This document shows, piece after piece, positions 10,779 through 23,700 of a DNA stretch of 64,000 nt. Within the stretch, counting starts at the first letter, position 1. Every line of letters begins with the position of its first letter. Position numbers and translations under genes: made by a program. The notes beneath the pieces were generated by a model. The model searched no databases and was not told the origin of the DNA. It saw only the letters and a list, made by a program, of their open reading frames with translations. Source of the stretch: Gemmatimonadota bacterium. GTDB lineage: Bacteria > Gemmatimonadota > Gemmatimonadetes > Gemmatimonadales > Gemmatimonadaceae. The stretch is from the NCBI GenBank assembly GCA_026387935.1, contig JAPLKU010000010.1:1-64000 (forward strand), read 5' to 3'.

Positions 10779-11321
10779 TTAGTTGCTCCGTTTCTTCGCC
10801 AACACAACCGCCCCGATAATCGCGACGAGCAGGAGCACGCTCGTCAGCTCGAAGGCGAGCAGGTATTCCTTGAACAGTGGCCCAGCGATCGGGCCGATGA
10901 TCCCCGCCGTTCCGGCAGCGGCGTTCTCCACCGGCGGCACCACCAGCTTCATCGTGACCTCGCTCCGCGTCAACGCCATCAACTCGGCGACCAGCGCGAG
11001 GCCCACGAGGCCAGCGAGGAGTCGGCCCAACTTGCCTCGCATGTCATTCAAGTCCGACGGATGGCCAAGATTGAGCAGCATGACGACAAACAGGAACACC
11101 ACCATGATGGCGCCGGCGTAGACCAGGATTTGCATCATCCCGACAAACTGGGCGTCAAGCATGACATAGAGGGCCGCTAGTGCGAACATCACGACTACGA
11201 GCCAGAGCGCGGCGGCCACTGGACTCTTCCGGGTCACAAACACGATCGCGCCAACGAGCGCAATCAACCCGAAGAGGTAGAAGTGAAAGGTGTAGAAGAG
11301 TGGAAGAAACTCGTTCTGCAT
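10779..11321 (-). CDS. nuoJ: NADH-quinone oxidoreductase subunit J
   Basis: A 180-residue complex I membrane subunit with five predicted helices. The third helix region, [19 protein letters not shown], is the most conserved part of NuoJ/ND6 and includes the pi-bulge segment that links to the quinone site. ATG 11321 has AGGA 5 nt upstream and follows nuoI directly. Confidence 0.95.
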
Positions 11322-11327
11322 CGGGTC

Positions 11328-11825
11328 CTACTCTCCCTTCTGGTCAGCGGGATCCCACATCTCGCAGACCGGGTGGGTCTGTTCGGTCAGCCGCTGGAGA
11401 TCGTAAACGAAGGAGTCACGGCTGTACTCCGCGTTCTCGTAGTGGCGCCCGACGTGAATCGCCTCTTCCGGGCAGACTTCCTGGCAGTAGCCGCAGAAGA
11501 TGCAGCGGAACTCGTCAATCTCGAATACGAGCGGATACCGATTCCCCTGCTCGTCTTCGCCCGGCACGAGCTTTATGCAGTTGGCCGGGCAGACCGTCGG
11601 GCAGAGGCCGCACGCCACACACTTGGCCTTGCCGTCTTCCGTCGTCAGCATGCGATGCGTCCCACGCCACCGCGGCGAAATATCCCAGCGCTCGTCGGGA
11701 TACTGCACGGTGACCTTGTGCGGGTCCACCATGTGCTTGAACGTGAGGGCAAGCCCCTTCACCGTCGCCCGCACATAGCTGACTTGCTCAATTGGCCGGT
11801 CGAGCACCTTCACCTTGATGGTCAT
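11328..11825 (-). CDS. nuoI: NADH-quinone oxidoreductase subunit I
   Basis: A 165-residue ferredoxin-like subunit of the peripheral arm, carrying clusters N6a and N6b. Two 4Fe-4S motifs are visible: CVACGLCPTVCPANC and CIFCGYCQEVCPEEA. The frame is open into nuoH, but ATG 11825 (MTIKVKVLDRPIEQ) starts 7 nt after the nuoH stop and matches the family N-terminus. Confidence 0.95.
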   Translation of the reverse strand: MTIKVKVLDRPIEQVSYVRATVKGLALTFKHMVDPHKVTVQYPDERWDISPRWRGTHRMLTTEDGKAKCVACGLCPTVCPANCIKLVPGEDEQGNRYPLVFEIDEFRCIFCGYCQEVCPEEAIHVGRHYENAEYSRDSFVYDLQRLTEQTHPVCEMWDPADQKGE

Positions 11826-11832
11826 CGGTGTC

Positions 11833-13119
11833 CTAGGCTCCCTTTTCAACGGGACGAGGCAACGTGCTTCGTCCGACGCTTGCCGCACGCAGTTTGTCCA
11901 CGTTCCGCTTGTCCAGTCGCGAATACGCCGGGCTCACAAGGCGGCCACGGTCGGCCACAAAGAGCAACAGGCCCATCAGCACGATGTTGATGCCGAAGAG
12001 CACCGCACCGAACATCGGGCCACGGGTCACGCCGGCGTAGTCGAGCGCGAGCACCGTGCTGGCGACCACCACCACGTAGCCGAGCGAAATGGGCAGCAGG
12101 ATCTTCCAGCCCAACGACATCAGCTGGTCATAGCGGAAGCGCGGCAACGTCCAGCGGATCCAGATGTAGAAGAACACGAAGAACAGCACCTTGCTCGAGA
12201 ACATCGCGAAGGTGGCCAGACTTTTCAGCACCGTGAATGGCCCCGTGTTGTCCCACTGCGTAAACGGGATGTCCCAGCCACCAAAGAAGAGCGTCGCCAT
12301 CATGGCGCTCGCCGTAATCATGTTGGCGTATTCGGAGATGGGGAACATCGAAAACTTCATCGCGCTGTACTCGGTGTGGTAACCCGCGATGAGTTCCGAC
12401 TCGGCTTCGGGAAGATCGAAGGGGACGCGATTGGTTTCCGCGAAGGCCGAGATCAGGAAGATGAACGCGGCCACCGAAAGCAGCAGCGCATTCCAGCCCA
12501 TCTGCGATTGCTGCGCGATCACCTGGTTGAGCGACACGTTGCCTGAAAGCAGCAGCACGCAGACCGTGCTCATGCCCATGGCGATTTCATAGCTGATCAT
12601 CTGCGCGCTTGCTCGGAGCCCGCCGAGCAGCGCGTACTTGTTGTTGGAGGCCCAGCCGGCGAGCACGATGCCGTACACGCCCACAGATGAAATCGCGAGC
12701 GTAAACAAGAATCCAACGGGGAGATCAGCAACGACCAGATCGATGCGACCCCAGGGTGTCGGCAACGGACTCCCGAATGGAATCACCGCCCACGTGATGA
12801 ACGCGGGAATGAACGCGAGGCCGGGCGCCAGAATGAAGAGCGCCTGACTCGCATAACCCGGGTACGTCTCTTCCTTCATGATGTTCTTGATGCCGTCCGC
12901 CGCGACCTGCAACAACCCCTGCGGCCCCACGCGGTTCGGACCATGGCGGTCCTGAATCCACGCCGACACCCGTCGCTCCGCGAATGTCGAGTACGCCACG
13001 CCTACCATATAGATGGTGAAGATCACGACCATCTTCACCACGGTCGCAATGATGAACACCCCCGTGGACGGATCCGTCTGCGAGTTTGCCACCTGTGCAA
13101 ACAGCATCGCGGTCATCAT
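11833..13119 (-). CDS. nuoH: NADH-quinone oxidoreductase subunit H
   Basis: A 428-residue membrane subunit (ND1 homologue) that forms the quinone chamber at the arm junction. Diagnostic motifs are RVSAWIQDRHGPNRVGPQG (first loop) and ETNRVPFDLPEAESELIAG (acidic loop at the entry to the E-channel). The C-terminal tail is about 30 residues longer than in short homologues. ATG 13119 overlaps the nuoG stop by 4 nt; a second ATG follows at 13116. Confidence 0.95.
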   Translation of the reverse strand: MMTAMLFAQVANSQTDPSTGVFIIATVVKMVVIFTIYMVGVAYSTFAERRVSAWIQDRHGPNRVGPQGLLQVAADGIKNIMKEETYPGYASQALFILAPGLAFIPAFITWAVIPFGSPLPTPWGRIDLVVADLPVGFLFTLAISSVGVYGIVLAGWASNNKYALLGGLRASAQMISYEIAMGMSTVCVLLLSGNVSLNQVIAQQSQMGWNALLLSVAAFIFLISAFAETNRVPFDLPEAESELIAGYHTEYSAMKFSMFPISEYANMITASAMMATLFFGGWDIPFTQWDNTGPFTVLKSLATFAMFSSKVLFFVFFYIWIRWTLPRFRYDQLMSLGWKILLPISLGYVVVVASTVLALDYAGVTRGPMFGAVLFGINIVLMGLLLFVADRGRLVSPAYSRLDKRNVDKLRAASVGRSTLPRPVEKGA

Positions 13120-14666
13120 CGACCGGCTCCGGCCATCGAGCCTGCGAGTGGTGTGCCCTTCAAGCCCAGCGAATCAAACGACATGCCGTCAAAGGCCGGC
13201 GTCGAAGTGGCCAGGGCAGCGAAGATATCAGATGCCGTGGCGTAGTCAGCCTTTTCACCGAGCGCGATGAGCAGGTCAGCAAGCGCAAACCAGGCGGGGC
13301 GCGCCTGACCCGGTGCCGCCTTCGCCTGCAGGAACCGCTGCACACGGCCGCGAAGGTTCGTGAGTGTGCCGTCAGATTCGACGACATTCGCGATCGGGAA
13401 GGCTGCGGTCAGCTTTGACAGTCCGCTCGGGTCTGCAGTGCCAATGAAGATCACGGCGCTTGCAGCGTTGAGTGCTGTGGAGGGGACAGCCGAAGGCTCC
13501 ACGTCAACGAGCACGAGCACGTCGCCGGCAGAGACACCCGCATAGGGCTGCTCCGTGCGCGCTGCGCCAAAGGCTTCAGCACCGGTTGCATTCGCCACAC
13601 GATCCGCACGGAGCGCGAGGTCTTCCACACCAGGAAGCGCGGCCTCAGCGCCCTGCGGCACATCGAACTTCACTGATCCGCCAGTTTTGCCAACGATTCG
13701 CTTAAGTAAGAAGAACACTTCATTGCTGAGCGAAGCGTTCGCGACAACGTGCGCCCTCTTGCCGTTGAGCGCGCCAACCGCAGCGGCGATGGCCGTCGAC
13801 CACTCGGCGGGTGCGCCATTAGCCATCGGCACCGCGCAACGATCCTGACGATTGAGCCAGCGATAGTTGAGGCGGCCTTCATCGCACATGAAGAAGGCGT
13901 TCACTGCTTCATTCGCGCGCGGCTTGAGGCGGACGACTGCATTGTCACGCGTCTCGACGACAATGTTGCAGCCCTGCGAACAACCCGTGCACACGGATGC
14001 CGAGCGATCAAGCTCCCACGCACGCGCCTTGTTCAGGAAGTCTTTCGAGAGCAGTGCGCCGACTGGGCACAGGTCCACCACGTTGCTCGCCCAGGGTTGC
14101 GTGAGCCCGGCGTCAGGTGCGGTCGTAATCACCGCGCGGTCGCCACGTTCGCCCACGGCGAGCACGGCGTCCTTGTGCACATCGTCCATAAACCGGACGC
14201 AGCGCGTGCAGAGGATGCAACGGTTCGGCACGTACAGCACGTCGCCGCCGAAATCTTCGACCGGGTTGAAGCGCTTGGGCTCCCGATAGCGCGAATCCTG
14301 ACGCCCTTCCTGGAAGGTGTAATCCTGGAGCTCGCACTCGCCGGACTGATCGCAGATGGGACAGTCGAGCGGGTGATTGATGAGCAGCAGCTCAAGCACG
14401 CCCTTGCGGGCCTCGAGCGACTTGTCGTTGTGCACGTGGACGACCTGACCTTCGGCCACGGCCGTCGCGCACGACGGCATTAGCTTCGGCGCCTTCTCCA
14501 CGTCCACGAGGCACATGCGGCACACACCCGCGACCGGTAGGCCGGGGTGATAGCAGTAGTGCGGAATGAGCACGCCGGCCGTTTTCGCGGCTTCGAGAAT
14601 CGACGTTCCTGCAGGCACCGAGACCGGGCGCCCTTCAATGGTCAGGTTTACGAGCGGTGCCGTCAT
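13116..14666 (-). CDS. nuoG: NADH-quinone oxidoreductase subunit G, short form with N7 motif
   Basis: The electron-transfer subunit of the complex I peripheral arm. Ligands visible in order: 2Fe-2S N1b (Cys38, 49, 52, 66); His98-Cys102-Cys105-Cys111 for N5; Cys150, 153, 156 and 200 for N4; and C-x2-C-x3-C-x27-C (Cys226, 229, 233, 261), the motif of the extra cluster N7. At 516 residues it is much shorter than the 680-910 residues usual for NuoG, because most of the C-terminal molybdopterin-oxidoreductase-like domain is missing. The 3' end abuts nuoH in frame order with a 4-nt overlap, so this looks like a genuine short form and not a frameshift. The start overlaps the nuoF stop by 4 nt. Confidence 0.94.
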   Translation of the reverse strand: MTAPLVNLTIEGRPVSVPAGTSILEAAKTAGVLIPHYCYHPGLPVAGVCRMCLVDVEKAPKLMPSCATAVAEGQVVHVHNDKSLEARKGVLELLLINHPLDCPICDQSGECELQDYTFQEGRQDSRYREPKRFNPVEDFGGDVLYVPNRCILCTRCVRFMDDVHKDAVLAVGERGDRAVITTAPDAGLTQPWASNVVDLCPVGALLSKDFLNKARAWELDRSASVCTGCSQGCNIVVETRDNAVVRLKPRANEAVNAFFMCDEGRLNYRWLNRQDRCAVPMANGAPAEWSTAIAAAVGALNGKRAHVVANASLSNEVFFLLKRIVGKTGGSVKFDVPQGAEAALPGVEDLALRADRVANATGAEAFGAARTEQPYAGVSAGDVLVLVDVEPSAVPSTALNAASAVIFIGTADPSGLSKLTAAFPIANVVESDGTLTNLRGRVQRFLQAKAAPGQARPAWFALADLLIALGEKADYATASDIFAALATSTPAFDGMSFDSLGLKGTPLAGSMAGAGR

Positions 14667-16027
14667 ACTGAAAGCCCTGTTGAAGCAGCAGCGGAGAGCT
14701 GCGAGCTCTGCGCTGTCAGCTTCGCGCCGGTTGACATGGATGAACGCTTGCCTGTGATCAACGCCTCAAATTCGTGACGGAACTTCTGCAGTCCGCTCAC
14801 CACCGGCGCGGCGCACGAGTCGCTGAGCACGCAGATCGTCTTACCAGTCATGTTGTCCGCGAGTTCGAGCAGCGTGTCGAGGTCTTCGAACGTGCCCTGT
14901 CCGGCCACGATGCGTTCGAGAATCTTCGTCGTCCACGCGGTGCCTTCACGACACTGGGTGCACTGGCCACAGCTTTCGTGCGCGAAGAAGCGCGCCAGGC
15001 GCGCAATCATTCGCGGCATGTTCTGCTGGTCGTCGAAAATGATGACGCCGCCGGAGCCAAGCATCGTGCCCTGCGCAACGAATCCTTCGTAGTCCATCAT
15101 GGTCGCTTCGGCTTCTTCCATGGTCTGGATGGGCACCGATGCGCCGCCAGGAATTACGGCCTTGAACTTCCGGCCAGGCTGCGGGCCGCCGCAGAGGTCG
15201 TACAGGAAATCCTTGAACGGGAATCCAAGCACGATCTCATAGTTGCCCGGGCGCGACACATTGCCGCACACCGAGAAAAGCTTACTGCCGGTGCTTTTCG
15301 GGCTCGACAGGCTCATCGCCTTGTACCACTCGGGGCCATTCATCAGGATGTGCGGCACCGCGACGAGCGTCTCGACGTTGTTGATCGTCGTGGGCTGCGA
15401 GAACAAACCAGACACAGCTGGGAACGGTGGCTTGATGCGCGGGTTCCCGCGCTTGCCCTCGAGCGACTCCATGAGAGCCGTCTCTTCGCCGCAGATATAC
15501 GCGCCCGCGCCTTTGTGCACATGCACATCAATGCGCTTGCCCGTCCCCATGGCGTTGTTTCCAATGATGCCGGCCGCATACGCCTCGGCCACGGCCTTCT
15601 CCATCCAGTCAATGCACTCGGTGAACTCACCGCGGATGTAGATGTAGGCCGTCTCGGCGCCAATCGCGTACGCTCCAATCGCGCAGCCTTCCACAAGCGC
15701 ATGCGGCGTCCAGCGCATGATCTCGCGATCCTTGAAGGTCCCCGGCTCGGATTCGTCCGCGTTGCAGCAAAGGTAGTGCGGCTTGCCGTCTCCCGGCTTC
15801 ATGAATGACCACTTCATGCCCGTCGGAAATCCGGCGCCACCACGACCGCGAAGGCCAGAGGCCTTGACGATGTCCACGATCTGCGCCGGCGTCATTGCGA
15901 GCGCCTGCTCGAGCGCGCGATAGCCGCCGCGTTTCTTCCAGCCGTCGAGCGTGCGGGCTTCCGTCTCGCCAAAGTGCTTGGAGAGAATCGCCGTTTCGCG
16001 CGGATGAGTTTTGTGAGGGTATCCCAT
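14663..16027 (-). CDS. nuoF: NADH-quinone oxidoreductase subunit F
   Basis: A 454-residue NADH- and FMN-binding subunit, the electron entry point of complex I. Motifs: GRGGAGFPTGMKW (NADH/FMN site), GAGAYICGEETALMESLEG (FMN and nucleotide binding) and ESCGQCTQCREGTAW (4Fe-4S N3, with a fourth Cys later at SDSCAAP). It begins at ATG 16027, sharing one base with the nuoE stop. The family N-terminus RETAILSKHFG is present. Confidence 0.96.
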   Translation of the reverse strand: MGYPHKTHPRETAILSKHFGETEARTLDGWKKRGGYRALEQALAMTPAQIVDIVKASGLRGRGGAGFPTGMKWSFMKPGDGKPHYLCCNADESEPGTFKDREIMRWTPHALVEGCAIGAYAIGAETAYIYIRGEFTECIDWMEKAVAEAYAAGIIGNNAMGTGKRIDVHVHKGAGAYICGEETALMESLEGKRGNPRIKPPFPAVSGLFSQPTTINNVETLVAVPHILMNGPEWYKAMSLSSPKSTGSKLFSVCGNVSRPGNYEIVLGFPFKDFLYDLCGGPQPGRKFKAVIPGGASVPIQTMEEAEATMMDYEGFVAQGTMLGSGGVIIFDDQQNMPRMIARLARFFAHESCGQCTQCREGTAWTTKILERIVAGQGTFEDLDTLLELADNMTGKTICVLSDSCAAPVVSGLQKFRHEFEALITGKRSSMSTGAKLTAQSSQLSAAASTGLSV

Positions 16028-16527
16028 TACTTCAGCCCTGCCAGAATCTGTTGAACCTTGTCAGCGGTCACGTTCTCGACCGTGTCGGCATTGATCTGCA
16101 CCGGCGTGGCAAAGCCGCACGCGCCGAGGCATTCCACTTCGATCACGGTGTACTTGCCGTCGGGTGAGGTGACGCCGAGCTCGTTGCAGCCGGTGTGCTT
16201 GAGAAAGGCTTCAGTGACCTTATCGGCGCCGGCGCAGAGGCAGGGCGACGTGGTGCAGATCTGCACGAAGTATTTCCCGACCGGGTGCTGGTGGTACATG
16301 GTATAGAACGTGACGACGCCCTTTACGTACGCGGCGGTAAGGCCGAGTGCAGCGGCAACTTCGGTCATGCCTTCCTCACTGACCCAGCCATGCACTTCCT
16401 GCACAATCCAGAGTGCGGGCAGTAACGCCGCCTGCTTGTTGGGATAGCGAAGGAGGATCGCGTCGAGATCGTTCTTGCGCTTGCCCGTGAAGACCTGAGT
16501 GTACGGGGTGGTTCCGTGTGCACTCAT
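16027..16527 (-). CDS. nuoE: NADH-quinone oxidoreductase subunit E
   Basis: A 166-residue thioredoxin-fold subunit with the 2Fe-2S cluster N1a. The four cysteines are in CTTSPCLCAGAD and ECLGACGFATPV. ATG 16527 (MSAHGTTPYTQVF) is the best start. The open frame upstream to 16653 is just the inverted-repeat element in the gap before nuoD and has no family similarity. The 199-nt gap to nuoD is the only large break in the operon. Confidence 0.95.
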   Translation of the reverse strand: MSAHGTTPYTQVFTGKRKNDLDAILLRYPNKQAALLPALWIVQEVHGWVSEEGMTEVAAALGLTAAYVKGVVTFYTMYHQHPVGKYFVQICTTSPCLCAGADKVTEAFLKHTGCNELGVTSPDGKYTVIEVECLGACGFATPVQINADTVENVTADKVQQILAGLK

Positions 16528-16543
16528 GCGACGGCTCCGTTGG

Positions 16544-16709
16544 AACCGCGGAGACTCGCCGAGCACAAACCGAGATTCGCGGAGACCACAACGGCAACTG
16601 ATGGGGGAACTGCAACGACACTCAGCGCGGCGCGCGCAGTTGCAGTTACCCAAGAAGTTGCAGTCTCCGCGAAGCTCTGCAGTGCCTTGCTCCGCGGATC
16701 TCCGCGGTT
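16544..16709. repeat. Nested inverted-repeat element between nuoD and nuoE
   Basis: Three pairs of perfect inverted arms are nested around one centre. AACCGCGGAGA at 16544-16554 pairs with 16699-16709. TTCGCGGAGAC at 16576-16586 pairs with 16663-16673. AACTGCAAC at 16608-16616 pairs with 16639-16647. The arms are separated by unpaired stretches of 21-31 nt. The element fills nearly the whole 199-nt gap inside an otherwise tightly packed operon. It is either a small non-autonomous element (MITE/REPIN-like) or an RNA structure in the nuo transcript. Confidence 0.8.
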
Positions 16710-16726
16710 AATCACTCCAAACCAGC

Positions 16727-18031
16727 TCATCGGTCAATTTCTCCCATCACGATATCAATGGACGCATTGATCGCGATGACGTCGGACAGCAGATGCCCTT
16801 CGACCATCTTCGGGATTGCCGACAGATTCACATAGCTCGGCGGGCGAATGCGCCAGCGCACCGGCTTCGAGGTTCCGTCGGACACCATATAGTAGCCCTT
16901 CTCACCCTTCGGACTTTCGACCGCGACGTAGCACTCGCCGATTGGCGGGCGCGGGCCTTCCATCACGTTCTTGAAGTGATGGATCATCGATTCCATTTCG
17001 CTCGTTGCCTTGTGCTTCGGCGGGAGAATCACGCGCGGGTCATCAATGTTCACCGGACCATCCGGCAGACGCTTCACCGCCTGGTCGAGAATGCGGATCG
17101 ACTGCCGCATTTCTTCCACGCGCACGAGAAAGCGATCGTACACATCGCCGGCCGAACCAACCGGCACGTCGAAGTCGTACGTCTCGTAGTCGAGATAGGG
17201 AAAATCCTTGCGCACGTCATACGCAACGCCAGACGCGCGGAGCAGCGGACCCGAGAGGCCGTAGTTGATCGCTTCGTCCGGCGACATCACGCCAAGTCCA
17301 ACGGTACGGCCCACCCAGATCGCGTTCTTGGTGAGCATCCGCTCGCATTCGTCGATCGTTTTCGGGAAGGTGCTGATGAACCCCTTCAGCCCGTCAATCC
17401 ATTTGTCCGGAATGTCGGCGGCCATGCCGCCAACGCGCGTCGCACTCGTGGTGAGGCGCGCGCCCACCCAGCCTTCAAGCAGGTTGTAGACGTTCTCGCG
17501 TTCCTGGAAACTCCACAGGAAGGGCGTGAACGCGCCGATGTCGATGCAGGTGGTGCCCATCCAGACGAGGTGCGATGCAATGCGCGAGAGTTCCGCGGCC
17601 ATCACCCGGAGCACCGTGCACCGTTCGGTGATATCAATGCCGAACAGGCGTTCCGCGCCAAGTGCGAAGGCGACGTTGTTGCCGATCGAGTTGAGGTAAT
17701 CCTCACGATCGGTCCACGGAATGATCTGGTTGTATTGGCGATATTCGCCGATCTTTTCAAAGCCGCAGTGCAGGTATCCCACGTGCGGAATGCAGCGTAC
17801 CACCGTTTCGCCATCGAGTTCGAGCACCAGGCGGAGTACGCCATGCGTGGCCGGGTGCTGCGGGCCAATGTTGATGAGCATGTGCTCGCCTTCCAACTCA
17901 GGCTCCATGGCCGGCGGTGCGGCAACGGATACGCCGGCGTCGCCGCCAACGAAGAGTGGCACGCGCTGCGGCTTCCCGTCCGGGCCCATCCCTGTGGTCG
18001 AGAGTTCGACCTCTACGGTGCGATTGGCCAT
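16727..18031 (-). CDS. nuoD: NADH-quinone oxidoreductase subunit D
   Basis: A 434-residue 49-kDa-type subunit that forms the quinone-reduction site with NuoB. The hallmark NIGPQHPATHGVLRL is near residue 52 and holds the quinone-binding His. SIGNNVAFALGAERL and GRTVGLGVMS are also typical. It is separate from NuoC, not fused as in E. coli. The 50-residue N-terminal extension before the conserved core is longer than usual. It starts 4 nt after the nuoC stop. Confidence 0.96.
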   Translation of the reverse strand: MANRTVEVELSTTGMGPDGKPQRVPLFVGGDAGVSVAAPPAMEPELEGEHMLINIGPQHPATHGVLRLVLELDGETVVRCIPHVGYLHCGFEKIGEYRQYNQIIPWTDREDYLNSIGNNVAFALGAERLFGIDITERCTVLRVMAAELSRIASHLVWMGTTCIDIGAFTPFLWSFQERENVYNLLEGWVGARLTTSATRVGGMAADIPDKWIDGLKGFISTFPKTIDECERMLTKNAIWVGRTVGLGVMSPDEAINYGLSGPLLRASGVAYDVRKDFPYLDYETYDFDVPVGSAGDVYDRFLVRVEEMRQSIRILDQAVKRLPDGPVNIDDPRVILPPKHKATSEMESMIHHFKNVMEGPRPPIGECYVAVESPKGEKGYYMVSDGTSKPVRWRIRPPSYVNLSAIPKMVEGHLLSDVIAINASIDIVMGEIDR

Positions 18032-18035
18032 GACG

Positions 18036-18731
18036 CTATTCGCCTGTCTTCTCGCCGCCGCTCAACCGCTTGCGCATGTCGGCGGGCAGATCTTCAAACG
18101 CATCGGCAATGGAGAGTTCTTCCATCGAGTAGCGCGATTCCGGATTTGCAGATAGCGCATTCTTGAGTTGCTCGGAGCGGCTGAACCGGCCACGCAGCGG
18201 GAAATCCTTTCGGAGCGGAAAGCCTTCCTTGTACTGCTCCCAGAGGAGAATGCGTCGGAGGTCGGGATGGCCGGCGAACTTGATGCCGAACATGTCATAG
18301 CATTCCCGCTCAAGCCAATCCGCACCCTTATAGATGTCCCATACGCTGGGCACTTCGAGCTTCTGCCCCTTGACGATCTGCACTTTCACGCGAATGAACC
18401 GGCGAAAGCGCAGTGAACGCAGGTGCCACACCACTTCGAGCGGCTGTGACAGATCGCGGAACTCAACAGCCGTCACATCGGAGAGATATTCGTAGCTCTG
18501 CGCCGGCTCATCATGGAGCCACTGAATGATCTCGTGAACTCTCGCGGCGCTAACAATCACCGTGGTTTCGCCCCGGGCAACGACCACGCGCGACACGGCA
18601 CCGGGAAACTGGGCTTCAACGGCCGCGGCGGATACACTGATCGGCCCGCCATGCACCGGAACGTTTCTGGGGGTGACCGGCGTGGCGTCGCTGCCGGTGC
18701 CAGGGTGAACGATCGTGAACGGATGACTCAT
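18036..18731 (-). CDS. nuoC: NADH-quinone oxidoreductase subunit C
   Basis: A 231-residue 30-kDa subunit of the complex I peripheral arm. The signature is WLERECYDMFGIKFAGHPDL with RRILL following, and the FPLRKDFPL segment is near the end. ATG 18731 (MSHPFTIVHPGTG) is 16 nt after the nuoB stop; longer starts would overlap nuoB by more than 100 nt. The N-terminal 45 residues are not conserved in the family. Confidence 0.95.
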   Translation of the reverse strand: MSHPFTIVHPGTGSDATPVTPRNVPVHGGPISVSAAAVEAQFPGAVSRVVVARGETTVIVSAARVHEIIQWLHDEPAQSYEYLSDVTAVEFRDLSQPLEVVWHLRSLRFRRFIRVKVQIVKGQKLEVPSVWDIYKGADWLERECYDMFGIKFAGHPDLRRILLWEQYKEGFPLRKDFPLRGRFSRSEQLKNALSANPESRYSMEELSIADAFEDLPADMRKRLSGGEKTGE

Positions 18732-18747
18732 CGGAACATTCGGCGAA

Positions 18748-19392
18748 TCAGGGCGCGGAGCGCGTCTGGTGAACCGAGTTGCCGAATGGTTCGGACAGCT
18801 CGTCAATGCGCGACGCGGGGATGTAGAGCTTGCTGATCGGGTCGGGCGACATCTCGTCGCGAATGCCGGCCTGCGCGTTGCGCTCATTCATGATCTTCTT
18901 CTGCAGCATCATGATTCCATAGATCAGGCCTTCGGGGCGCGGCGGGCAACCGGGAACGTACACATCCACCGGAATGATCGTATCAATGCCCTGCACCACG
19001 GCGTAGTTGTCAAACATGCCGCCAGTGGATGCGCAGGCGCCCATCGAGATGCACCACTTGGGCTGCGGCATCTGCTGCCAGATCCGCCGAATAATCGGCG
19101 CGAGTTTGAACGGCACTCGGCCGGCGCAAATCAAAACGTCGCTCTGGCGCGGCGAGAAGGCCATGCGTTCCATGCCGAACCGCGCGAGGTCGTACTTGCT
19201 CGCGGCGGAGGCCATGAATTCGATGGCGCAACAAGCGGTGCCGAACGGCATCGGCCAGAGGGAGTTGGCGCGGCCCCAGTTGACCAGGAAGTCGAGCTTC
19301 GTGGTCACCCACGACTCGCCCGGCCGCGCGTCCATATGGACCATCTCGGTGGCCGGCCCATGGCCGGCGAACTCAGCTCCGTTCAGTCCCAC
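18748..19392 (-). CDS. nuoB: NADH-quinone oxidoreductase subunit B
   Basis: A subunit of 214 residues from GTG 19392, or 198 from ATG 19344, that carries the terminal 4Fe-4S cluster N2. The ligands are the tandem Cys in GTACCAIEF, the Cys of SMGACAST and the Cys of VPGCPPRPE. The GTG at 19392 has GGGAG 7 nt upstream but overlaps nuoA by 10 nt. The ATG at 19344 lacks a clear ribosome site, so I prefer the GTG. The C-terminus is about 20 residues longer than in short homologues. Confidence 0.93.
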
Positions 19393-19787
19393 TGGAGCGC
19401 TCCCTTTTTCCAGACGTAGATGAATCCCACAAGCAGAATCAGCATGAACACGATCATTTCGCCGAGGCCAAAGAACGAGATCTGGCCGGCCGGGCACGCG
19501 CCTGCGACGAGCGGCACCGCGCAGGAAAGCTGGCGGTAATACGCGCCCCACGGAATCATGAAGACGGTCTCGATGTCGAATACGATGAAGAGCATCGCGA
19601 CCATGTAGAACTTGACGCTGAACCGCTCGCGCGCGTCGCCGAGGGGAGTGATGCCCGACTCATACGGCGTCTGCTTTTCCGGAGTCGGCCGAGCGCGCAC
19701 GGTGAAGTGCGAGAGGCCGAGCATTCCCACCGCGTTCATGACAACGAACCCGGCGAGGAGCAGGATGGGGAGGTAAGTTCGATCCAT
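19383..19787 (-). CDS. nuoA: NADH-quinone oxidoreductase subunit A
   Basis: A 134-residue, three-helix complex I subunit (ND3 homologue) and first gene of the nuoA-N operon. The conserved [21 protein letters not shown] holds the acidic loop/helix at the quinone junction; the preceding matrix-loop segment is [11 protein letters not shown], where many homologues have a Cys-containing YECG. ATG 19787 ([14 protein letters not shown]) gives the usual size. The longer open frame to 19916 lies upstream of the promoter boxes. Confidence 0.94.
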
Positions 19788-19833
19788 TTGCGATAGAGGG
19801 TCGCTCGTGAAATGCTTCACGAACAGAGGATAA

Positions 19834-19861
19834 GTTATTTGTTGGTATGGAGTAGTGTCAA
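19834..19861 (-). promoter_or_regulatory. Probable promoter of the nuoA-N operon
   Basis: A perfect -35 box TTGACA (complement of 19856-19861) is followed after 16 nt by AATAAC (complement of 19834-19839, 4/6 to TATAAT). It lies 47 nt upstream of the nuoA ATG in a locally AT-rich stretch, in the divergent gap with dcd. Confidence 0.55.
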
Positions 19862-19886
19862 CGAGCCACCTGAGGTATCGGCCGGG

Positions 19887-19925
19887 GGTTTCGGAGCTAT
19901 CACGTGGTGCGGACAACGGCGGGAA
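19887..19925 (+). repeat. Dispersed intergenic repeat, copy A
   Basis: The segment starts GGTTTCGGAGCTATC and ends GCGGACAACGGCGGGAA. It aligns with 28181-28222 (plus strand) and 29463-29501 (minus strand). All three copies are intergenic. This one lies between the divergent nuoA and dcd genes. Confidence 0.65.
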
Positions 19926-19993
19926 TGTTTGGATAACTCGGCGGCGGGCGCCGCCGTACCTTTCGTACTCCTTCTTTACTCACTTCTTTAAAC

Positions 19994-20542
19994 ATGACTA
20001 TTAAAAACGACCGCTGGATCATTGAGCAGGCCAAGCTCGGTATGATCGAGCCCTTTGAGAGCTCCCAGCAGCGCGATGGCGTCGTCTCGTACGGCGTGAG
20101 CTCGTACGGCTACGACATGCGGGTGGCGCCCGAGTTCAAGATTTTCAGCAACGCGCTGAGCTCCATTGTTGATCCGAAGAACTTCGACCCGAAGTGCTTC
20201 GTGGAGTTCACGGGCGATGTTTGCATCGTGCCGCCCAACTCGTTCGCGCTTGCGCGGAGCATCGAGTACTTCAGGATTCCGCGAAACGTGGTCACCATCA
20301 CGGTGGGCAAAAGCACGTACGCCCGCTGCGGGATCATCACCAACGTCACGCCCTTCGAGCCTGAGTGGGAGGGTCACGTGACGCTGGAAATTTCGAACAC
20401 CACTCCCCTGCCCGCGAAGATTTACGCCAACGAAGGCATTGCGCAGGTGCTGTTCTTCGAGGGTGAGCCGCCGATTACGAGCTACAAGGATAAGAAGGGC
20501 AAGTACCAGGGGCAGCGGGGAGTGACGCTGCCGAAGATTTAA
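19994..20542 (+). CDS. dcd: dCTP deaminase
   Basis: A 182-residue enzyme that deaminates dCTP to dUTP (or dUMP in bifunctional forms) for thymidylate synthesis. [25 protein letters not shown] and [10 protein letters not shown] (catalytic Glu) are hallmarks of the dUTPase/dCTP-deaminase trimer family, and the C-terminal lid [12 protein letters not shown] is present. ATG 19994 has no evident Shine-Dalgarno; the preceding bases are CTTCTTTAAAC. It is the first plus-strand gene of the window and diverges from nuoA. Confidence 0.95.
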
Positions 20543-20623
20543 CGCGCGGTATTTCAACGCCGAGACCGCACCACCCGCTGTGGCATCGCGCCCACTTCGT
20601 GGGTAGTGCATGGTGAGGCCGGT

Positions 20624-20653
20624 TTGACACAACCGTGACACGAATCACATTAT
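20624..20653 (+). promoter_or_regulatory. Probable promoter of the susC-susD pair
   Basis: TTGACA (20624-20629), an 18-nt spacer, then CATTAT (20648-20653, 4/6). The boxes lie about 80 nt upstream of the receptor ATG. A small hairpin, CCCAC-TTC-GTGGG, is at 20591-20603 just upstream. Confidence 0.5.
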
Positions 20654-20733
20654 TGCGCATCGGTAACTGTCTCCGGCAGTTGGCTAAACAGGCCCGCAAA
20701 TCGACCGAACATTCTCCCCAGGAGCGTTGCACG

Positions 20734-23700
20734 ATGCACGTACGCCGAAGTTTCCTCCGGCTGTCGACCGCCGGGTTTGCCCTCGTTCTTGCGACCTCGT
20801 CGCTCGCCGCCCAAGGCGGCTCAGCGTCCGGTATCGTCAAGGATTCCGCCACGGGCTCGCCCATTGGGCAGACCCGGGTGCACGTGTCCGGGACCACCAC
20901 CGGGGCGATGACCACGGACAACGGTCGGTACGTGCTTCGAGGCATCGCGCCCGGCGCGGTGACCCTCGAGTTCAGCCGCATCGGCTACACGCAGAAGCGG
21001 ATGACCGTCAACGTCGCAGCGGGTGCACCGCTCGTAGTGGATGTCAACCTCGCCCAAGCCACCTTCTCGCTCGACGCCGTCGTGACGACCGTCAGCGGTA
21101 TTCAGCGAAAAGTCGAACTCGCCAACTCGACGACGCAAATCGCCGTCGCCGGCACGGTGAGTGAGCTGCCGGTCTCCAACCTCGGCAGTCTGCTTTCCGG
21201 ACGCGCCTCCGGCGTGCAAGTCGTGCAGACCGGCGCCACGGGTACCGGCTCGCGCATTCGTATTCGCGGCCAGAACTCATTCTCGCTCAGCAACGATCCG
21301 ATCGTGATGATCGACGGCGTACGCGCGACGTCCACCACGAACAATGCGATCGGCACCGGTGGATCGGGCCCGTCGCGACTGGACGATCTGAACCCGAATG
21401 AAATCGAAACGATTGAAATCGTGAAAGGCCCGTCGGCGGCCACGCTGTACGGCACCGAAGCGGCGAACGGCGTGATCGTGATCAAGACCAAGCGCGGCCG
21501 CGCTGGCGCGACGCGCTACAGCGTCTCGATGGAAACGGGCAGTATCACCAACGTTGCCAAGTACCCGGACCTCTGGTCGCTCTGGGGCAAGACGACGGCG
21601 GCGCCGACCGTTTCGAACATCTGCCTCCTTACTGCAGTGGCCGCCGGTACCTGCACGGTGGACTCGCTCTCGCACGGCAACGTGCTGAACACACCGGGCC
21701 TCACGCCGATCGGCTCTGGCGCACGCACGCAGTATTCGCTCCAGATCTCGGGCGGCACGGAAGGCCTTCAGTATTTCGTCTCCGGCCAGACCGAAACGGA
21801 AACCGGCGTGTACAAGATGCCGGACAACGAAGTCGGTCGCCTCAACCTGCGCCGCGGCGTCAGCCTGCCCGGCACGCAGATGCGGCCGAACACGCTCGCC
21901 CGTAACAGCCTGCGCGCGAATCTCAATGCCCGCCTCTCGCCCGACCTGACGATTCAGACGTCGTCGGCGTTCATCAATAGCAACGCACGATTTCCGCAGA
22001 ATGAAGACAACAGCAACGGCCTCATGGTCGCGGCCGTTGGTGGCCAGTGGCGTGGCGATCTCGCCGATGCACAGGGCGACTCACTTCACGGCTATCGCTC
22101 GTTCATGATGGGCGACGTGCTCTCGCAAACCACGACGCAGGGCATCAACCGCTTCATCAACAGCGTGTCGGCGCAGTTCACGCCCACGTCGTGGCTCGCA
22201 GCGCGGGCATCGGTCGGCGCGGATTTCGCGCTGCGTAGCGATCTCTTCCTCTCCAAGGTTGGCGAAGGCCCGAATACGGGCACCACGCGCACAGGCTCCA
22301 TTCAGAGCACGAGTGCTGACCTCAACCAGCAGAGCGTTGACCTCGGCGCCACGACCACCTTCCAGTTGCTCCCCTGGCTCAACTCGAAGACGTCGGTTGG
22401 TATGCAGTACCTGCGCAACGCCTCCGGGAATACCACGGGCACGGGCATCGGCCTTCCGCCCGGCGGTGTGACGGTTTCGACCGCCGCGACGCGGTCGAGC
22501 TCACAGAGCTTCAATGAAAAGCGTACCCTCGGCTACTATGTCGAACAGGTGCTCGGCATTCAGGACAAGCTCTTCCTCACGGGCGGCGTTCGCCGTGATG
22601 CCGCGAGCGCCTTTGGTAAGACGCTCAACGCGGTGTACTACCCGAAGGTTGGCGCCTCGTGGCTGCTCTCGAGCTATGACTGGTTCAAGCGCCCGTCGTG
22701 GGTGACGTCACTGCGCGTTCGCGGCACGTACGGCGCCTCGGGCCAGATTCCCGGCGCAACGGACGCGGTACGGTACTACTCGGCCGCTTCGACGACGCTC
22801 TCCAACGGTAGTGATACGCCGGGCGCGTCGCTCGGTTCGCTTGGCAACGCGCAGCTCAAACCGGAGTTCTCGGCCGAAACCGAATTCGGTTTTGACCTGA
22901 ACCTCTTTGAAAGCCGCGCGAATATTGAACTGACGCACTACGACAAGAAGACGTCAGATGCCCTGATCAGCCGACTGATCGCCCCTTCGCTCTCAGGGCT
23001 CTCGAATCAGTTCGTGAACGTCGGCAGCGTGCAGAACAAGGGCTGGGAACTGACCTACACGCAGCATGTGATCGAGCGGAAGGACCTCTCCGTCGAGTTC
23101 ACGCTGACGGGTTCGACGCTCGACAACAAGATGCTGAAGCTCGGCGATGGCATCTCGCCCATTGCCTCGGGCAATCGCAACACGCAGCGCAATCTTCCAG
23201 GCTACCCGCTCTTCGGCCTGTGGGATAAGTCGATCACGTATAACGATGCGAATGGCGACGGCATCATCGTGCTGAGCGAAATGACGTTCAGCGATACCGC
23301 GGTGTACCAAGGTTCGACACTGCCGACGCGCGAAATCGCGTTCTCGCCCTCGGTGTCGCTGTTCAACAACAAGCTCCGCATTTCATCGCAGATTGACAGC
23401 AAGTGGAACTTCAAGAAGTTCAACAACACGCTCCGCCACCAGTGCATGAATGGCGTGTCGTGCCGCGGCCGGTATGACAAGACGGCCTCGCTGAAGGAAC
23501 AGGCCTATGCGCTGGCAACGTCGCAGTCGGTGTACACGGGCATGTTCGAGGACGGGGCATTCACCCGTTGGCGCGAAGCGTCCATCTCGTACGAAATGCC
23601 GACGTCGTGGGCCCGTATGCTGCGCACCAACAGCTGGACGGTGATCCTCACCGGCCGCAATCTCGGCGTCAAGACGAAGTACAGTGGTGTTGACCCGGAA

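Follow-up and report, generated by a model that had tools for sequence, protein, structure and literature searches.

In a genome of the Gemmatimonadaceae (Gemmatimonadota), the operon of nuo genes carries a long palindrome between nuoD and nuoE, which raises the question whether this structure serves the respiratory operon or is a copy of a repeat that inserted there. The window analysed, a stretch of 64,000 nucleotides, lies on contig C11; the genome comprises 2.8 Mb in 28 contigs and is 95% complete. On its minus strand, the window contains eight Pfam-matched genes, nuoA to nuoH. Upstream in the transcript lies nuoD (16727-18031, minus strand; 434 aa, PF00346, Complex1_49kDa) and downstream nuoE (16027-16527, minus strand; 166 aa, PF01257, 2Fe-2S_thioredx), leaving a gap of 199 nt at 16528-16726. 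The original prediction considered all other nuo gaps to be at most about 50 nt, which is correct for junctions of -4 to 47 nt and fails for nuoB-nuoC with 151 nt as called, a value that goes back to a late nuoC start set by the gene caller, as the open frame runs on through the gap.

The whole palindromic element, a subfamily A copy, covers 166 bp (16544-16709), with the flanking genes 16 and 17 nt away. The three perfect arm pairs that had been predicted (11, 11 and 9 bp) are all present in the gap: AACCGCGGAGA (16544-16554 with 16699-16709), TTCGCGGAGAC (16576-16586 with 16663-16673) and AACTGCAAC (16608-16616 with 16639-16647). Their supposed common centre was recovered within 3 nt (16626.5, 16624.5 and 16627.5). 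Allowing mismatches extends the arms of the nuo copy to 22 nt (86%), 21 nt (86%) and 26 nt (81%), of which the first are the outer left and right arms (16544-16565 and 16688-16709, plus strand) and the second the middle left and right arms (16572-16592 and 16657-16677, plus strand). A conserved core with its loop, identified as a match to the core model R1, lies at 16589-16667; its left half is an exact core pattern (16602-16620), and its right half is worn. The 8-mer CGCGGAGA by itself occurs in the window no more often than expected (8 observed, 7.99 expected), and the unusual feature of the gap is the arrangement, not the abundance of this 8-mer.

A genome-wide search for the arms, as the original prediction had called for, and for the gap revealed that the element is multicopy, with about 30 related places. 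Comparison of the nuo gap with its own genome by blastn gave 35 pieces at 20 places (40 of 56 candidates scored); the element is similar to its reverse complement, and many places were therefore matched on both strands. The core pattern together with R1, a model built from 21 copies (15 of them from the same genome), added nine further places, and the arm pattern added one lone arm. The latter pattern had 29 matches versus one with the reversed control; of the 29, the match at C21:65741 did not look like an element on inspection by eye. At best, other copies are 70-79% alike to the nuo copy by blastn, and therefore the spread is not recent for most of them. Fifteen subfamily-A copies were alignable over their full length, with a mean column identity of 69%. 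As in MITEs, which are 70-300 bp in size, bear inverted repeats, are non-coding and occur in multiple dispersed copies, a non-coding unit of 166 bp with inverted repeats is found here at about 30 places.

What the copies share is a near-fixed core, GGGGGAACTGC...GCAGTTCCCCC; the arms around it vary in sequence by subfamily and host. In full, the core reads TTGGGGGAACTGCAACGAC, loop, GTCGTNGCAGTTCCCCCAA, with long arms on both sides. Arms of subfamily A are composed of units such as CCGCGGAGATC, spaced about 10 nt, and those of subfamily B read GGTCTCGGCGCTAGCGCG...CGCGCTAGCGCCGAGACC; arm units of roughly 10 nt each include CGCGGAGATC, CACGGATTT, CGCGAAGGA, CGCAGAGGA, GACGCAAAGG and others. Two kinds of arm were seen by eye within one element at C18:258703 and C27:45803, and a subfamily-A arm is frequently closer to an arm of another copy than to its own partner. 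Both observations fit an exchange at the core. Half elements are present as well (C25:6174 and C15:433). In one relative (L071, G001:C31:1670-1850), an array of GTTGCA/GTTGCC hexamers, probably grown by slippage, lies between the core halves.

Within the genus, R1 matched 15 of 18 genomes at E <= 0.001, with at least 48 matches in the host genome (both strands counted) and at least 45 in G011; these counts are lower bounds, as scoring covered 150 of the 848 or more candidates in each genome. No match at this threshold was obtained in G004, G008 and G015. Across the phylum, a search with stricter filters and 32 scored candidates per genome gave R1 matches at E <= 1e-4 in 11 of 150 genomes, the host included, and all 11 belong to the same family. 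Among GTDB species genomes, the pattern GGGGGAACTGC N8-38 GCAGTTCCCCC occurred in 42 stretches, of which 29 are Gemmatimonad records and 13 come from other taxa. Inspection by eye of the Gemmatimonad records placed the core mostly between arms of repeated units of about 10 nt, the unit varying (CACGGATTT, CGCGAAGGA, CGCAGAGGA), with few such arms in L162, L164, L189 and L200; none of the 13 other stretches had arms of this kind by eye. A literature search that covered subscription papers only in part yielded neither a title dealing with repeats of this kind in Gemmatimonadota nor a paper containing any of six arm-like strings.

Comparison with relatives gives an idea of how the repeat arrived at the nuo locus. 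In the genus, 17 of 18 genomes gave a nuoD match, and nuoE adjoins it in all 16 other than the host. The gap between them is -4 nt in seven of these, 8-46 nt in seven, 103 nt in one and 238 nt in one, several lengths being approximate since the nuoE match begins inside the protein. The nearest relative, G003 (nuoD 95% identical), has a gap of 43 nt, and the 103 nt of G009 are, by eye, a tandem duplication. At this junction, the element is absent in 16 of 16 comparable genomes. The 238-nt gap of G016 (contig C16; L119/L203) holds a different palindrome made of CGGAT-type units, with another core and no GGGGGAACTGC, apparently a second independent acquisition at this junction. In a genome of another genus (L085, G045:C44), part of the same gap is taken up by GAGAGACAACA direct repeats, each about 11 nt long.

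Element-free sites were also found elsewhere. At the site C20b, G001 has a gap of about 60 nt that lacks the element, the site C20a in G001 is longer yet element-free, and C23a lacks the element in G002 and G014. Presence and absence at orthologous sites, a further property of MITEs, is thereby documented for the nuo junction and, in some relatives, for C20a, C20b and C23a. In the host, C20a and C20b form an element-gene-element arrangement of 3.2 kb (L077, G000:C20:92000-98000), and at the same site G003 (contig C2; L205) has one worn element without the gene. This is the state expected after recombination between two copies, and other orders of events are conceivable. At the corresponding place in G005 (contig C44; L211), arm-like stretches were noted by eye on either side of a different gene. 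A single copy in the genome, with a gap conserved in relatives lacking the arms, had been named as the outcome that would speak against the original prediction; the opposite was observed, with many copies and a gap that is absent or different in relatives. The nuo hairpin very likely represents a dispersed repeat that inserted at this junction specifically in this lineage. Loss from all relatives in place of one gain is formally conceivable and would need many losses.

The positions of the copies relative to genes are not random, and this observation bears on the strongest alternative, an element of the host itself that acts at 3' ends, where the hairpin would end or protect transcripts from both directions and the nuo copy would be a partial terminator within the operon. 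According to a single simple codon-usage caller, the midpoint of a copy lies inside a called gene at none of 30 places in a background that is 85% coding; owing to hand-set element limits, six copies extend into a called gene, the overlap ranging from a few nucleotides to 36 nt. Of 28 copies with both neighbours (L081 and L311, each with one neighbour missing, were excluded, and L029 changed class between two annotation passes), 13 lie between convergent, 11 between tandem and four between divergent genes. The background of 201 gene pairs, taken from the window and ten 20-kb stretches of the same genome, comprises 26 convergent, 147 tandem and 28 divergent pairs (the window alone had one convergent pair in 50). 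The convergent excess at the copies (13/28 vs 26/201, p 9e-5) favours a role at 3' ends, as does the finding that eight of 11 tandem copies begin 6-18 nt past the upstream stop codon, with element limits set by hand. However, the four copies between divergent genes do not suit this explanation, nor do the three of 18 genus genomes without a match to R1. Moreover, an intrinsic terminator, that is, a G+C-rich stem followed by a U-tract, was not found within 16400-16850, and the hairpin is not followed by a U-tract. A sigma-70 promoter was likewise not matched in this range.

The long hairpin that the original prediction had proposed for the RNA is stable in computed folds: the minus-strand RNA of the gap folds at -103.5 kcal/mol compared with -77.4 +/- 4.5 for shuffles (z -5.79; 0 of 200 dinucleotide shuffles equally good). 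Likewise, each of the 15 aligned subfamily-A copies is more stable than its mononucleotide shuffles (z between -3.3 and -14.8). In 46 elements, the duplex of an element's own left and right arms has a mean of -76.3 kcal/mol versus -51.9 for swapped arms, and none of 20,000 arm-swap permutations was as good as the own pairing. This set comprises 28 of 29 Gemmatimonad records and 18 of 20 supplied loci from the host or its relatives, the dropouts being L162 (short flank) and L079 and L070 (whose core the search expression missed). Twelve of the 30 host places are outside the set (L006, L015, L016, L020, L021, L028, L030, L059, L078, L080, L307 and L311), being degenerate, half, hybrid or simply omitted, and the figure is therefore biased towards well-formed copies. 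That own arms outpair swapped arms across subfamilies agrees with a host 3'-end element; the lack of compensation within subfamily A does not. There, 14 copies showed no excess for the own arm (alignment score 19.0 vs 19.5, p 0.66), the C18 copy being excluded because its outermost arm lies outside the aligned stretch. In the core, two-sided changes occupied 4 cells versus 7.1 in shuffles, and pairing was 88.0% versus 89.2%. Complementarity is kept across subfamilies with different arms, and no pair-by-pair compensation is seen; therefore, selection on the hairpin itself is not demonstrated. Taken with the divergent copies and the missing U-tract, a 3'-end element of the host appears unlikely.

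A second alternative assumes a REPIN or a TIR repeat moved by a REP-associated tyrosine transposase of the Y1 type. The element is palindromic, intergenic and present in many copies, and Y1_Tnp (PF01797, RAYT) occurs in 23 of 148 genomes of the wider family, among them G020 and G045 of other genera, which also have R1 core matches, not side by side with the Y1_Tnp genes in the loci examined. Against this, Y1_Tnp was detected in none of the 18 genus genomes, the host included, while five of 14 control genomes were positive, and the exact core half was present at none of 30 Y1_Tnp loci in other genomes of the family. Seven printed Y1_Tnp loci with long inverted repeats comprised four of the GGGGTCAG type and three others, none like the arms of the element. 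In the former (L274, L278, L280 and L284), Y1-type transposase genes lie between inverted arrays of GGGGTCAG units that fit GGGGWSAS, and in the latter (L283, L287 and L288) between other inverted arrays. For this genus, movement by a Y1 transposase is largely refuted and, as a general explanation, very improbable. The original prediction of a small mobile element of the MITE or REPIN type is supported in its broad sense by dispersed copies, element-free sites and intergenic position, and is not supported as a strict REPIN, given that Y1_Tnp was found in none of the 18 genus genomes. No autonomous relative or mobiliser of the repeat was found in a transposase search that addressed Y1_Tnp only. 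The longest flank repeat gave no indication of a target site duplication either (mean 2.57 vs 2.49 for mismatched flanks, in 14 of the 15 aligned copies), and old copies may have lost such a duplication. The pair C23a/C23b was considered as the ends of an insertion sequence and rejected, as the 451-aa frame between them is also matched in G002, G003 and G014. In G020 (L070, C21:469900 and 471450; another genus), a 403-aa frame lies between two cores with GACGCAAAGG-type arms, which are 1.5 kb from each other.

A regulatory RNA specific to nuo, which the position within the operon and the stable fold might suggest, can be dismissed almost entirely, as it is refuted by the copy number (about 30 related places, with copies beside other genes) and by the absence of the element from the junction in all 16 other genus genomes compared. 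Moreover, the sole Rfam match with E up to 1 in 11000-21000 is at 13099-13128, outside the element.

Known repeat systems resemble the element in part. ERIC, also called IRU or RU-1 (127 bp), is comparable by description, not by sequence, as a dispersed, intergenic, long imperfect palindrome of similar size. An exchangeable-arm architecture is not known for ERIC. In Yersinia, ERIC is reported to be transcribed with both neighbours, and the upstream transcript to be less stable (PMC2229807, PMC10969869). A table in PMC2229807 gives target duplication and TA ends for ERIC; none were seen in the present element. REPIN and REP sequences with RAYT are likewise inverted palindromic units, extragenic and in many copies per genome (PMC3116915, PMC3733652), whereas the present genus has no Y1 transposase, and the element is several times longer than the 20-40-bp palindromes of REPs with their adjacent GTAG or CGTC tag (PMC3733652). 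The TIR repeats of TIRtrons are likewise long inverted repeats in moderately abundant families, noted in Acidobacteria and others (PMC3733652); however, they border genes of the Y1 type, and some carry a GGGGWSAS motif, whereas the core GGGGGAACTGC does not fit this motif and is not beside Y1 genes. NEMIS/Correia and RUP elements are also short, palindromic and beside genes, but have defined terminal repeats and duplications, with RUP ends resembling an insertion sequence (PMC2229807), features not found here. Correia/NEMIS hairpins are reported to be processed by RNase III (PMC2229807, PMC10969869).

Taken as a whole, the explanation that the nuo copy is a member of a dispersed, non-coding family of long palindromes, MITE-like or ERIC-like in a broad sense, and that it occupies the nuoD-nuoE junction in this lineage only can be held with good confidence. 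The repeat would have been copied into the nuoD-nuoE gap by some machinery and kept there since a site just behind a stop codon is presumably tolerated. The nuo transcript would then contain a long hairpin with imperfect pairing, which might be a substrate of RNase III or another double-strand RNase or, alternatively, might slow decay from the 3' end. Such processing or protection might partly uncouple the mRNA levels of nuoA-D from those of nuoE onward. A measurable effect of the hairpin on nuo mRNA is conceivable, if somewhat doubtful, and a role of the hairpin as a dedicated switch for this operon is improbable.

For nuo itself, a tolerated insertion is an ordinary finding, and it accounts for the irregular gap in an otherwise tight operon. 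The novelty is the repeat family, with its fixed core, differing arms and no RAYT, and not nuo. It may tentatively be regarded as a class of mobile elements in Gemmatimonadota in which a near-invariant core palindrome with interchangeable arms spreads behind stop codons without a RAYT. Within this class, and with similar reserve, arm units of about 10 nt might be replaced from one host to the next and, inside a single genome, be recombined at the core, the two arms staying complementary throughout. The family bears on the question in bacterial genomics of how dispersed palindromes spread without a recognisable mobiliser: its constant core, set between arms that differ, suggests that either the copying machinery or the host recognises the core.
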